From Hydra vulgaris (lineage: Eukaryota > Cnidaria > Hydrozoa > Anthoathecata > Hydridae): a stretch of DNA of 64,000 nt. Positions 29,074 through 64,000 of the stretch are shown here, piece by piece (position 1 is the stretch's first letter; every line of letters begins with the position of its first letter). The translations under genes and the position numbers were made by a program. Where the stretch lies: the NCBI RefSeq assembly GCF_038396675.1, contig NC_088927.1, forward strand, positions 35,326,001 through 35,390,000, in the 5' to 3' direction. Below the pieces are notes generated by a model. That model saw only the letters and a list, made by a program, of their open reading frames with translations. It did not search any database and had not been told where the DNA came from.

Positions 29074-29273
29074 GCGCGGAGTGTTGCTACATCGACTATT
29101 TTATAGCCTGACTCGCAAGGGAGTGCTGCTACATCGACTGACAAATAGCCTGACTCGCAAGGGAGTGCTGCTACATCGACTGACAAATAGCCTGACTCGC
29201 AAGGGAGTGCTGCTACATCGACTGACAAATAGCCTGACCCGCAAGGGAGTGCTGCTACATCGACTGAGGGTTT
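29074..29273 (+). repeat. 42-bp minisatellite, about 4.7 copies
   Basis: Four full units starting GCCTGACTCGCAAGGGAGTG at 29106, 29148, 29190 and 29232, with a partial unit before and almost no differences. The unit length is a multiple of three, so the array is open (SLTRKGVLLHRLTN repeats), but no start, neighbour or domain suggests a real protein. Confidence 0.93.
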
Positions 29274-35691: not shown

Positions 35692-36590
35692 ATGGAGAAG
35701 CAATTAAGAAATATATCTAACCACAGCGTTATGATTTTGAAAACTTTAAAAAGATATAGAGAGGACGCTATTAAACTGTGTGATTTGGTATTACAAGTTG
35801 AAGACCAGGTATTTCCAGTGCACCGTTCAGTTCTTGCTGCATGCAGTCAATATTTTTATGCAATGTTTGCTGGAGAACTTAAAGAAAGTAGCCAGTCAAC
35901 TGTTGTATTAAATGATGTTAAAGCAAATATATTAAAACAATTATTAGATTTTGCGTATGATGGCGAAATAGAAATACATTCTAAAAATGTTGAAGATATT
36001 CTACGTCTAGCTACACAATTGCAGTTTATTCAGGTTTGTGATATATGTTGTAACTTTCTTGAGCAACAACTGGATACCATGAATTGTATTAACATTCGCA
36101 ACTTTGCAACTCTTTATAACTGTATATCTTTTACTTCTAAGATTGATATATTTATGGAAAATAACTTTAAAGATGTTATTAATTCAGATGAATTTAAAAA
36201 CTTACCATTTTCTGTGCTTAAAAGTCTTATTTCCAGTCATAAGTTAAATGTAGTTTTAGAACAGGATGTTTACAATGCGGTCATAAAATGGGTTAAATTT
36301 GATCTTAATCAAAGGCGCAACCAATTTTTTGCTTTACTTAATGAAGTAAAACTACCTTTGTTATCAAAAAAATTTATAATGCAACATATAATTAATGAAG
36401 AGCTCATTAAGTCTGAAATGAGTTGTAGAGATTTGTTAGATGAGGCAAAAAACTATCATTTGTATCCAAAAATGAGAGCTATTTTTCGCTCTAAACGAAC
36501 CATACCTCGATATTCAACGGTTGGTTTATTGTTTGCAATTGGAGGTAAAGAAACTGGAGAGCAAATTACTAACAAAGTAGAATGCTTTAG
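35692..36590 (+). CDS. Kelch-like (KLHL) protein, exon 1: BTB, BACK, start of kelch domain
   Basis: Encodes residues 1-299. The BTB/POZ domain spans about residues 22-130 (LCDLVLQVEDQVFPVHRSVL, with D31 and the HRSVLAACS helix, AMFAGELKES); this domain dimerises and binds Cullin-3. BACK spans about 135-240 (NIRNFATLYNC, AVIKWVKFDL, RDLLDEAKNYHL). The first kelch strand, LLFAIGGKE, begins at about 279. KLHL proteins are substrate adaptors of CUL3 ubiquitin ligases. The frame stops shortly after (36615), but AG|GTATTT at 36590/36591 is a good donor; joining to exon 2 makes an AGC codon and continues the kelch repeat. Overall pattern is closest, from memory, to KLHL20/diablo-type proteins; the subfamily is not assigned. 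Confidence 0.9.
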
Positions 36591-41555: not shown

Positions 41556-41597
41556 CTTCCAACAAGGCTGCAAGCAGCCACTAATTAAAGTTGGAAG
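41556..41597 (-). other. Nested 3' stem-loop of LINE copy D
   Basis: An outer 8-bp stem CTTCCAAC/GTTGGAAG encloses an inner 6-bp stem GGCTGC/GCAGCC with a two-base loop, at the extreme 3' end. Copy E has the same CTTCCAACT...GGTTGCTTGCAG sequence at its 3' end (49446-49474), partly decayed. Confidence 0.65.
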
Positions 41598-42992
41598 TTA
41601 CTGAAAGGAAAAAGATGAAGATTGTAGAGCAAGATATCAATTGACGGACATTTTAAAGGATTGCAAATTATATGAATCAGGAAAGCAAGATGAAGGAAGC
41701 GAATTCCAAAGAGCTGATATTCGAGGAAAAAAAACTTAATTAAATGACGAGTAACACGAGAATGAATTTTAGTAGATGGCACAAGAGGCGCTAGCTCTTT
41801 AGAGCACTGCCCATTATAGTATTTGTAGAAAAGAGAAAGAGAAGCAACATTAAGACGATGTGATAATGGTTGGAGGTTGGCTGCAAGAGCAGGTCCAACT
41901 ATGTTTACAATGCGTTTTTGCACCTTGTCTAAAAAAGAAAGGGCATTAGAAGATCCACCCCAGATATGGCAACAGTATTCCATACAAGACCGGATTTGAG
42001 ATTTATAGAGATAGAGAATAGAATCCGAAGTAAGAAAGTGACGAGCTCGATAAAGAGATGCAACCTTAGCAGATGTTAATTTTGCAACTGATTTGATATA
42101 TGGTTTCCAAGAAAGATTGGAAGTAAGAGTTAATCCTAGAAGATGAAGAGAAGGTGACTCATTGAGTACATCACTGTTTATAAATATAGGAAGATCTAAA
42201 TTGCGATAATGATTGGCTGAAAAAAATTGAGTTTTATCTGAATTAAAGTTCACCAGCCACTGTGAGCCCCATGCTGTAGCAGAAGTGAGATTCTTTTCAA
42301 GCTCAAATGCCCCCTCCAAGCAATCAGAGGGTGTTGGTTTCTTATCACGACAAGAATAAATGGTAGTATCATCAGCAAGCAATGCCACCTTAGATGTGAG
42401 AATATCTGGAAGATTGTTAATGTAAATTAAAAAGAGTATAGGGCCAAGGACCTTGAGGAACCCCTTAAGTTATAGAATAAGAATAAGAGTGCTGTCCATC
42501 GAGGACAACTTTTATGCTACGATTGGAAAGGAAGGATTCAATAATCTTAAAGATGTTGCTGGATACACCATAAGAAGAAAGCTTATGGAGAAGACCAGCA
42601 TGCCAAACTTTATCAAAAGCTTTTGAAATGTCAAGAGCGATGGCCTTAACCTCTCCACCTTTATCAAATGCACGATAAAACCTATCAGTTATTACTGTTA
42701 TCAAATCAGCTGTAGAACAAGAAAATTGAAATCCATATTGATGGTCAGAAAGTATGTTATTAGATTCAAGACTAATGGGACGGTAGTTAGACGAATCAGA
42801 TCGCTCTCCAGAATTTTTGAAGATGGGGATAACAGATGCTGCTTTCCAGCAGTCTGGAAAACAAGACTCTGATAAGCACTTGTTGAATAGTTTTGAAAAT
42901 ATATACGACAGCTCTAGAGAACACTTTTGCAAGACAATAACAGGTATGTTGTCCGGGCCACAAGCTGTAGAAGAGTCAAGATAGAAAATCAC
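41585..42992 (-). pseudogene. LINE reverse transcriptase (copy D), broken
   Basis: The RT fingers/palm (42992-42465) contain ACGPDNIPVIVLQKCS, NYRPISLESNNILSDHQYGF and ALDISKAFDKVWHAGLLHKL. The segment between NYRPIS and QYGF is shorter than usual, as if the usual LLPIISKVFE part were deleted. A frameshift before GVPQGS separates the second part (42388-41585) with LADDTTIYS and the thumb CHIWGGSSNALSFLDKVQKR. Normal domain order otherwise. Confidence 0.82.
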
Positions 42993-43270
42993 TTTAAATA
43001 CAGAAGCTGAGTGATATGAATGTCAAGCAATGGATCAACCTGTTTGTTGGCAATATCAGGTAGAACGCAACTAGTGGAATTAAGATATGATATTGATGAA
43101 AAGTTTTTAGCAAACAATTCAGCTTAGTCTTTAGGTGAGGTGACAAAGTCTGAACCATACAAGAAAGGTGGAATTAAAGATTTGCCCTTATTATTGATAT
43201 TATTAAAGATTCTCCAGAAGTCACAAGAGCCTAATTTTTGAGATAAGATACGAGATTTCATGACCTGAGA

Positions 43271-52762: not shown

Positions 52763-52943
52763 CATGTTTGATAACTCATGGAAATCATTAACATCATTGT
52801 GGTCTCATAGGCAACAACTAGGTGTATGTGTATTAAAAAGTAAAATATATGCTATCGCTGGTTCAGATGGAGATAACCGTTTAAATTCTGTTGAAGTTTT
52901 TGATTGGAGCACAAACTCTTGGAACAGTTCTACACCTTTGCAG
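52763..52943 (+). CDS. KLHL protein, exon 2: kelch repeats 1-2
   Basis: Begins after the acceptor TATGCTAG; its first base completes an AGC codon with exon 1. Encodes MFDNSWKSLTSLWSHRQQLG, then VCVLKSKIYAIAGSDGDNRL and NSVEVFDWSTNSWNSSTPLQ: the end of kelch blade 1 and most of blade 2, with the usual RxxxGV, YAIAGSDG (for YAIGG.DG), VE.FD and NSW motifs. Exons 1 and 2 together give exactly 360 codons, so the junction with exon 3 is in phase 0. The exon end CACCTTTGCAG|GTAATAATC is the first unit of a 30-bp minisatellite, so six more copies of this donor follow. Confidence 0.88.
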
Positions 52944-53138
52944 GTAATAATCTGCAGGTCTACATCTTTGCAGGTAATAATCTGCAGGTCTACACCTTTG
53001 CAGGTAATAATCTGCAGGTCTACACCTTTGCAGGTAATAATCTGCAGGTCTACACCTTTGCAGGTAATAATCTGCAGGTCTACACCTTTGCAGGTAATAA
53101 TCTGCAGGTCTACACCTTTGCAGGTAATAATCTGCAGG
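52929..53138 (+). repeat. 30-bp minisatellite across the exon 2 splice donor, 7 copies
   Basis: Seven head-to-tail units beginning TCTACACCTTTGCAG and continuing GTAATAATCTGCAGG; only one base differs (CAT for CAC in unit 2). Each unit repeats the last 15 bases of exon 2 and the first 15 of intron 2, so CAG|GTAATA donors end at 52943, 52973, 53003, 53033, 53063, 53093 and 53123. The unit is a multiple of three and open in the exon 2 frame (VIICRSTPLQ), which ends in a TAA right after the array (53139-53141). Confidence 0.97.
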
Positions 53139-53985
53139 TAATTGTTATCCTAACTTTGTGGTAAATTTTTATAACTTTTTTGCTTCAATAAAAAATTTTT
53201 TTCTGAAAATATATCATAAATATATCATAATATAAAAACAATACATGTCCATTGAAGTAAAAAAATTTAAAACACTATACATTTGGATACTATTTTTATT
53301 TATAAAGTCATCATCACCATCACTATCATTTTCAGTATATGATTCTCTGTTTGTTATTCTAATGTTGTTATCAGAACAGAATTTAAGAGTTTTTTTTTAG
53401 AACTTTTTTTATTTAGAACCTTAGCTTTTTTAATTACTTATATTTATTACTACTAAAGAAAGATGTAAACTTTTTTATATTTATTACTACTAAAGAAAGA
53501 TGTAAACTTTTTTATTGTGTTAGTTTAAAAAAAAATTTTTATCATTTTTTCATCAGCATTATTTTTTGGTCACATTAAGATATGATTTTATTTTAAACTC
53601 TGATATGTATTTTATTAAAACATAGAAAATGGGGCTGATTCTATCAACAGCTGTAAAATATCAGAGTATTAACAATACCATGTTGCACAAGAATGATGTT
53701 CCTGTATATGCTTTTTAAGGTCACATTAGGAGTGCTACACATAAGGAGTGCTAAGTTATGACTTTAGGTTAGTTAGCAGGACTAAGATAACTGCATAGCT
53801 CATTGCTTGGGATGCTCTATCTACGAATGAGTCAAGTTCTCTTTAACTTAATAATTTTTTATTCTTGCAATCAATATATACAATAGTTTTAAAAAACTAC
53901 CTTATTTCAGATGCATTTCCCACAGACATTTCTGCTGTTTAATTTTGCAAATTTTCTCTTTTTAGAGCTTAAATCTGACCTTTGT

Positions 53986-54040
<55 letters not shown>

Positions 54041-54577
54041 TGGTATTTACAATATAATTTTAATATTTACTTTATAAATATCTTGATATTTACAATAATA
54101 ACTTAATATATCTTAATATTTCTTAATATAATTATTACTATATATATATAAATATCTTGTTGTTTACTATATAATCCTAATATTTACAATATAAATACAA
54201 AGTAGTGATATATATGAAATAACAAAAAAATAATAAAAAATTTTATTATAATTTTTTATAATTAAAAATTATATAGTTAATTTTATTGTTATAAAATAAG
54301 TCTTTTCATTATACACATAAAACATTTTTATATAACGACTTCTGCTTTTAAAACCCTGAGAATTTTACATTTAACTGTTTTGAGAAAAAATTATCTTTTG
54401 TTAAAAAAACAATTTGTTTTATTAAATAAAGTTTATTAAATAAATGTTATATTAAATGAAGTTTATTATTTTTAGTAAAAAAAAATTTTCTACTCTGATT
54501 TTTGATTTTCAAACTAAAATTGTAATTATGCTTTCCTGACTCATGCAACCTTCGACTTTTTAAATCTTCTGTCAAAA
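53139..54577. other. KLHL intron 2, with (TA)n at 53992-54037
   Basis: AT-rich. A 48-bp direct duplication (TTACTACTAAAGAAAGATGT...) at 53445-53515. A (TA)n at 53992-54037. No gene seen. Confidence 0.55.
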
Positions 54578-54709
54578 GTTGCTTACAGCCTTGTTGTGAA
54601 TTGCTTACAGCCTTGTTACGGGTTAATTACAGCCTTGTTGCGAGTTGCTTACAGCCTTGTTGCGAGTTGCTTACAGTCTTGTTGCGAGTTGCTTACAACC
54701 TTGTTGTGA
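54578..54709 (+). repeat. 22-bp minisatellite, 6 copies
   Basis: Units of GTTGCTTACAGCCTTGTTGC(GA), with a few changes per copy. Each unit contains a TTACAG acceptor-like word, but none is joined to coding sequence. Confidence 0.92.
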
Positions 54710-55569
54710 GTGAGTTAGTTCAAAAAAAAAATTTGATGAGTTGATAGAATTCAAAAATCATAGTTATATTTTTCCTATATTTTTGTTATCAATATTAACT
54801 CTGGTTTCAACTTTTATCAGAATAAAAAAATAGTTTGATAAAATAAAGAAAAATAACAAACCCAAGTTTTAAAATTAGTTTGAATTGCTGCTAAGTAACA
54901 ACTATGGATATAGTAACTATGACAACTATGAAATCTAGTAACTTGAGTTTTTAAAAGTAACAAATTAATAGTATTAAAACTATTAGTAATAAATTTTTTT
55001 GTAAAGATCATTTGTAAAACCAAGACAACCACTTTTCATAATCAAAAGCATCTTTCCAAAAAAAATTAGAAAACACTTTTATTCCTATGATCTTATTTTA
55101 ATTATTTTCAATTATTATATTTTTAAATTTTTATCAAAGAACTTTACTTATTTATCTTATCAACCCAGTTTAATCTCCAGATTTATACACATATTAAAAT
55201 CATGCATGTACACATGTTCAAACTCAACATTTATACTTATGCTGTAAACATGCATGGTCAATATATTGTCAATGTATAAATGCAGTGCATACATTTGATT
55301 CATTATATTTTTAGGTCTAGTAAAATTTCATGTTTTAAAGTTTTAAATGTTGTTATAAGTATATACTGTATATATATATTTAATAAATAAAAATTTTAAT
55401 TTTTTTTTAGTGCTTTTTTATATTCATTCAATGTGTTTTTTTCTTTATTATTTTATATTTTATTTATTCAATTTACATACTTTGATTTTTCTATATAAAA
55501 AAATCTATTCAAATTGGTTAGACCTATATGCAACCACTGCATTTCAACAAATAAATTTAGTCAAGGAAA
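54710..55569. other. KLHL intron 2, nothing recognised
   Basis: AT-rich, with ACATGTACACATG / CATGCATG-type words near 55190-55255. Confidence 0.5.
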
Positions 55570-55946: not shown

Positions 55947-56106
55947 ACTTGCCGTTCTGGAGTGGGTGTTGGTGCACTGAGAGGATCTATATATGCTTTG
56001 GGTGGGTACGATGGGCATCATTGTCTCAGCTCTGTGGAGCGCTTTAATCCTATTGATAATAAATGGCATTTTATTGCTTCAATGAATTTTGCAAGAAGTT
56101 TTCCAG
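55947..56106 (+). CDS. KLHL protein, exon 3: kelch repeats 2-3
   Basis: Starts in phase 0 after the acceptor TACTTTTAG. Encodes TCRSGVGVGALRGSIYALGG, YDGHHCLSSVERFNPIDNKW and HFIASMNFARSFPG: the RSGVGV / IYALGGYDG / SSVERFNP / NKW pattern of a full kelch blade plus the start of the next. It ends at G|GTACTT (56106/56107) in phase 1. Joining exon 2 to exon 3 gives NSSTPLQ-TCRSGVGV, which fits the kelch consensus without gap. At least two or three further blades are needed to close a propeller; no later kelch exon is visible to 64 kb, so the gene either continues past the window or is truncated. Confidence 0.88.

Positions 56107-62332: not shown

Positions 62333-64000
<1,668 letters not shown>

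Follow-up and report, generated by a model that had tools for sequence, protein, structure and literature searches.

The window, by which we mean the whole 64,000-nucleotide stretch of Hydra vulgaris DNA analysed here (C8:35326001-35390000), holds the first three coding exons of a BTB-BACK-kelch (KLHL) gene whose second coding exon ends in a short minisatellite. Five exons, distributed over 40 kb and joined on the basis of homology, phase and splice words, give a predicted unbroken frame of 564 residues, the five parts meeting at phases 2, 0, 1 and 1. Positions are those of the window unless a contig is named, and a slash within sequence letters marks a splice junction.

35692..36590, + strand: exon 1, coding part, with BTB, BACK and the start of the first kelch motif; donor TTTAG/GTATTT, phase 2 (genome search with PF07707, open reading frame, DNA)
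52763..52943, + strand: exon 2, a kelch blade whose putative native end is the first donor of the array, phase 0 (frame join, blade spacing)
55947..56106, + strand: exon 3, the next kelch blade; acceptor TTTTAG/ACTTGC; starts in phase 0 and ends in phase 1 (frame join)
C8:35396163-35396339, beyond the window: exon 4 (protein search, DNA read)
C8:35401735-35402012, beyond the window: exon 5, with the stop (protein search, DNA read)

The host gene looks intact when read in this way. A Pfam scan of the joined 564-residue protein returned BTB (3.1e-30), BACK (8.6e-27) and five Kelch_1 stretches. The best E-values in a PDB search with the same protein belong to SAKe chains, which we take to be designed kelch propellers, and the longest match is to KEAP1 chain 6wcq_C (residues 27-559). 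A kelch-based search of the open reading frames of the window had matched exons 2 and 3 alone; a pseudogene or gene fragment was rejected once an exon encoding BTB and BACK had been located at 35692-36590 and the two last exons, 4 and 5, downstream. Joining exons 1-5 also confirmed that exon 2 ends, and exon 3 starts, in phase 0, as an earlier note on this DNA had stated. Intron 1 measures 16,172 bases and contains RVT_1 (reverse transcriptase) pieces on the - strand (41588-43022), presumably non-LTR-like, while intron 2 measures 3,003 bases. Open frames on the - strand at 62441-63336, near TA repeats, resemble a Tc1/mariner transposase; the piece at 62441-62992 gave no Pfam match.

The minisatellite lies at the boundary between exon 2 and intron 2, and is followed directly by a stop codon in the exon frame.

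52929..53138, + strand: donor array, seven 30-bp units TCTACACCTTTGCAGGTAATAATCTGCAGG (TRF and unit-by-unit reading)
53139..53141, + strand: in-frame TAA, reached if the array is read through (DNA and translation)

TRF placed the repeat at 52925-53139, with a period of 30, 7.2 copies and 98% matches, and listing the units one by one bore out the seven copies at 52929-53138 described in the earlier note, as well as the TAA directly after them. If the first donor is the native one, each unit comprises 15 exonic and 15 intronic bases, spanning the exon/intron boundary. Unit 2 is the sole variant: it differs by one C>T in the 210 bases of the array, and reads CATCTTTGCAG. Translated in the exon frame, the array consists of repeated VIICRSTPLQ blocks, one of which contains STSLQ. 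The earlier note had given each unit the same acceptor-like words and a ten-codon reading with no stop; all seven are indeed stop-free, but owing to the C>T in unit 2, CACCTTTGCAG is present in only six of the seven units. Other tandem repeats in the window include a minisatellite inside intron 2 (54577-54711, 22 bp, 6.1 copies) and a 42-bp repeat at 29078-29267 (4.5 copies), whose period is a multiple of three.

Chance cannot account for the array, as shown by the 21-base core TTTGCAGGTAATAATCTGCAG, which at three or fewer mismatches has seven matches in the window as compared with a mean of 0.01 in shuffled sequence. At the same tolerance the unit has seven matches in the 911.5 Mb of the genome searched (911,502,276 bases in 15 contigs), all of them in this array, while the reversed pattern has none. 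A dispersed satellite or a repeat carried by a transposon was rejected because all seven genome matches belong to a single array. With one change in its 210 bases the array may be young, but a mis-assembled one could look like this too. Tandem arrays are a usual place for assembly error, and the true copy number might be different, or the array absent; nevertheless, a long read extends far beyond the 210 bp of the array, unit 2 has a variant of its own and the genome is in 15 contigs, so that we find an error of this kind scarcely credible.

Candidate donors occur at every unit, and one more occurs immediately after the array.

52941..53129, + strand: seven identical donors CAG/GTAATA, exon ends 52943, 52973, 53003, 53033, 53063, 53093 and 53123, all in phase 0
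53135..53143, + strand: eighth donor CAG/GTAATT, exon end 53137, phase 2, giving a frameshift; missed by the earlier note

All seven array donors share the nine-base word CAGGTAATA, with a spacing of exactly 30 nt (ends at 52943 + 30n, n = 0-6). Each matches the consensus at 7/9 positions and has a predicted U1 duplex energy of -8.1 kcal/mol. Since they are identical over nine bases and pair equally with U1, the sequence gives no ground for preferring one. Splicing from donors 1-7 to exon 3 is predicted to yield proteins of 564, 574, 584, 594, 604, 614 and 624 residues, each with a single terminal stop, in agreement with the earlier claim of seven in-frame donors 30 nt apart. The donor at 53137 has the same U1 energy as the array donors and matches the consensus at 8/9 positions; its use would lead to a stop after 435 residues, whereas reading on through the array would end the protein after 425. 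Six weaker donor words, CAG/GTCTAC, match at 5/9 positions and are in phase 2.

These properties bear on which end of the array might be favoured. At a spacing of 30 nt every donor can accommodate its own U1 particle, and in such circumstances the intron-proximal site is often favoured. We count this, together with the closer fit of 53137 to the consensus than that of any other donor listed, toward a reading in which the downstream end wins, so that splicing takes place mostly from 53123 or 53137, the array is retained in the mRNA and gene function is reduced. The coding exons are free of stops and frameshifts, which argues against function having been lost long ago, but the array is perhaps too young to tell; the predicted RNA pairing described below also runs against use of 53137, and we regard this outcome as unlikely.

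Blade spacing argues for the upstream end. Splicing of exon 3 to the first donor gives a protein that reads ...WNSSTPLQ/TCRSGVGV... and aligns without a gap at the junction with the three SAKe chains whose alignments were listed. This joined-blade alignment also supports the earlier proposal that extra blocks would fall between two kelch blades. In order to compare the boundary with others in the same genome, the joined blades were aligned with 28 of 31 loci (L004-L031; E <= 1e-5), and 50 distinct blade boundaries were obtained from HSPs that extend across the junction. L001-L003, which contain exons 2 and 3 of the gene itself, were excluded; L007 and L022, its own exons 5 and 4, were included. 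Forty-five of the 50 boundaries have no gap, two have one extra residue and three have longer gaps (3, 9 and 29 columns). The last three are poor alignments, two crossing stops and the third skipping a blade. No trustworthy ten-residue insert was found among the 50 other boundaries. Intron 2 starts in the array; among the other blades its absence is apparent only in alignments that necessarily span the boundary, and the method would miss blades with an intron at this place. The first donor gives the spacing usual for kelch blades and is probably the native one. As 45 of 50 boundaries have this spacing, ten-residue blocks are not usual in these proteins in this genome, and such blocks may well harm the kelch fold.

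It is possible, though in our view the smaller part of the probability lies there, that one donor, most likely the first, does nearly all the splicing, leaving the other six as inert intron and the protein unaffected. The first donor provides the spacing that is usual in relatives, and once it has joined exon 3 the array is plain intron. Nevertheless, the nine bases of the first donor are no different from those of the other six, and where donors compete in human DOK7 the downstream, intron-proximal site is preferred, that site being also the stronger one (available excerpts of PMC5585400). The indications point to opposite ends: production of the normal protein to the first donor, the DOK7 precedent to the downstream end.

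Pairing within the RNA could modulate this choice.

52938..52957, + strand: one instance of the predicted RNA hairpin that each unit can form, UUGCAGGU-AAUA-AUCUGCAG, with the donor inside the stem; near-palindromic and repeated every 30 nt; missed by the earlier note

A single unit folds at a predicted -8.6 kcal/mol (z -3.06; 3/200 shuffles as good), as compared with -2.4 kcal/mol (z 0.11) for an invented junction that lacks the array. The whole array reaches -79.2 kcal/mol (z -7.08; 0/200 shuffles as good), part of which energy is expected for any repeated near-palindrome. The centroid of the whole-array fold is almost empty, indicating that no single structure dominates. The mean unpaired probability is 0.30-0.40 at the array donors and 0.12 at 53137, where the predicted pairing is strongest; this is the point that tells against a preference for the downstream end. 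Expansion of the array would thus appear, in this folding model, to have brought a partly hidden donor.

Each unit contains AG/GT, in which donor-like and acceptor-like words coincide. The 20 bases before the TTTGCAG of unit 2 include 13 pyrimidines, as compared with 11/20 for the exon 2 acceptor and 12/20 for that of exon 3. With such AG/GT junctions and 13/20 pyrimidines, splicing inside the array could take place. As regards a recursive splice site, there is an AG/GT in every unit, but the donor falls short of the full consensus and intron 2 is only 3,003 bases long. The furthest-reaching proposal is that of a frame-keeping donor minisatellite, whereby one allele encodes up to seven kelch proteins carrying zero to six ten-residue blocks, and a change in copy number alters the set of isoforms. 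In its boldest form TTTGCAG/GTAATA would act also as an acceptor, and units would be spliced out successively, the RNA shortening its own array. We consider this proposal doubtful.

How surprising is such an array? Minisatellites with a period of at least 10, a TRF score of at least 100 and at least two copies account for 1,922 of the 64,000 bases of the window (3.0%; 13 rows, the array included). With a cover of 3.0%, donors should be struck now and then; the chance that one of the gene's three donors in the window is covered is ∼9%, before selection. In simulation, a random 30-mer with an A+T content of 72% is stop-free in a given frame with a probability of 0.43. Given an array, a match of frame is then a coincidence of about 1 in 7 (1/3 for the period x 0.43).

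This weighs against the interpretation in the earlier note, that the array acts as a functional tuner, its copy number deciding how many isoforms are made. In its favour, seven donors are in frame and the insertion point lies between two blades. Nevertheless, a frame match is expected in about one of seven arrays, the other blade boundaries offer no trustworthy insert of this size, and the frameshift donor at 53137 competes with the rest. We therefore hold an evolved tuner to be very unlikely.

Donor-like words are common in arrays across the genome. Three copies of CAGGTAA with gaps of 5-35 gave 305 matches (137 + 168), as compared with 133 (56 + 77) for the reversed pattern; three copies of AGGTAAGT with gaps of 4-34 gave 98 (35 + 63), as compared with 141 (90 + 51), in both cases as matches that overlap within arrays, so that the figures do not say how many arrays there are. 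We rejected the idea that donor arrays form a general class in this genome, as the two pattern tests disagree and give no sound enrichment. Twenty-two other places, not a random sample, were checked for an open frame leading into the first donor. Ten of them derive from 11 rows among 30 loci of contig C1 (L050 and L066 being one array), and the remaining 12 were hand-picked, 2 from the CAGGTAA matches and 10 from the AGGTAAGT matches. Only one of the 22 was exon-like by eye. This locus, L072 (C5:40513130-40513700; exon-like part 254-401), has an open stretch, coiled-coil-like by eye, which ends TTTCAG/GTAAGT, and carries this strong donor six times, 21 bp apart (401, 422, 443, 464, 485 and 506). 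An in-frame stop follows the first donor, so that the first of the six alone avoids it. If L072 is a real exon, first-donor use would be the rule there, a point in favour of first-donor use at the kelch gene. The three stretches scanned, L044, L072 and L077, gave no convincing Pfam match, and L072 gave no convincing PDB match. Longer open stretches were seen at L043 (52 codons) and L081 (41 codons), while L068 is masked upstream. L050 (C1:29195632-29196016) has nineteen CAG/GTAAGA words exactly 21 bp apart, with no long open frame into the first.

The explanation to which we give about an even chance is that the array is a young, tolerated passenger, and that leaky donors would give a mixture of isoforms, with no evolved device. 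A 30-bp segment centred on the boundary, with 15 bases from the end of exon 2 and 15 from the start of intron 2, would have been tandemly duplicated, to reach the present seven copies, and the near-identity of the units would reflect young, local duplication. The unit contains no stop and its length is divisible by three, so that any array donor keeps the frame, and the expansion would for this reason have been tolerated. Leaky choice among donors, the simplest expectation when donors are equal, would produce the native protein from the first donor and, from the others, forms that are 10-60 residues longer between two blades, together with some frameshift product from 53137. All of these donors should be used less than they otherwise would be, because each unit folds. 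Against leakage, position, exon-binding proteins or the order of hairpins could sharpen the choice among equal sites.

Choice among equal 5' splice sites has been studied mostly with built constructs. Identical donors at 30-nt steps in one transcript would provide a natural test of how the spliceosome makes that choice, and with all seven choices in frame the products would not be masked by frameshifts. Hydra strains might offer differing copy numbers. If several donors are used, the locus would show a route from the edge of an intron to new repetitive protein sequence.

The closest known system, as described in the available excerpts of the papers cited here, is a human one, and the claim that no case like this array had been described was wrong with respect to architecture. 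The CBS gene carries a 31-bp VNTR, c.1444_1467+7(16_21), with 16-21 units (PMC2630376), at the boundary of exon 13 and intron 13 (PMC1395315). Higher numbers of units are associated with lower CBS activity, and the repeat is referred to as ‘non-coding sequence’ at the boundary (PMC5188458). As in Hydra, the unit straddles the exon/intron boundary, in CBS with 24 exonic and 7 intronic bases on our reading of the notation, and each CBS unit should therefore carry a copy of the donor region. In contrast to the 30-bp Hydra unit, which keeps the frame, the 31-bp CBS unit is not a multiple of three, and use of other donors would shift it; CBS copy number varies between people from 16 to 21, whereas the Hydra array is known as seven units in one assembly. 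The interpretation in the earlier note thus stands as regards the gene, the boundary and the seven equal in-frame donors, and is weakened by the frameshift donor, the hairpin, the blade spacing and the CBS precedent. A frame-keeping donor minisatellite was not found among the matches listed in the literature searched, which covered few subscription papers. That a minisatellite can multiply a donor region is already known; the frame-keeping version may be new.

Other systems share parts of the arrangement. In CBS 844ins68, a 68-bp duplication over the junction of intron 7 and exon 8 creates a second copy of a splice site, and a strong preference for one copy leads to normal mRNA (PMC2630376); this is a single duplication at the start of an exon, whereas the Hydra array lies across the end of one. 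A model of intron gain invokes tandem duplication of DNA containing AGGT (PMC4974935). The Hydra unit likewise contains AG/GT, with donor-like and acceptor-like words, but the array lies at the end of an exon before an intron of 3,003 bases and shows no sign of having made an intron. In Caenorhabditis elegans, CeRep25B is a near-palindromic intronic minisatellite linked with alternative splicing (PMC4039745). It differs from the Hydra array in lying within introns beside alternative exons, and the excerpts available do not describe multiplication of donors. Donors of the GYNGYN type are spaced a few bases apart. In these short tandems, neighbouring donors bring about a subtle change of the protein (PMC1779574). 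The Hydra donors, in contrast, lie 30 nt apart, occur sevenfold and derive from a minisatellite.
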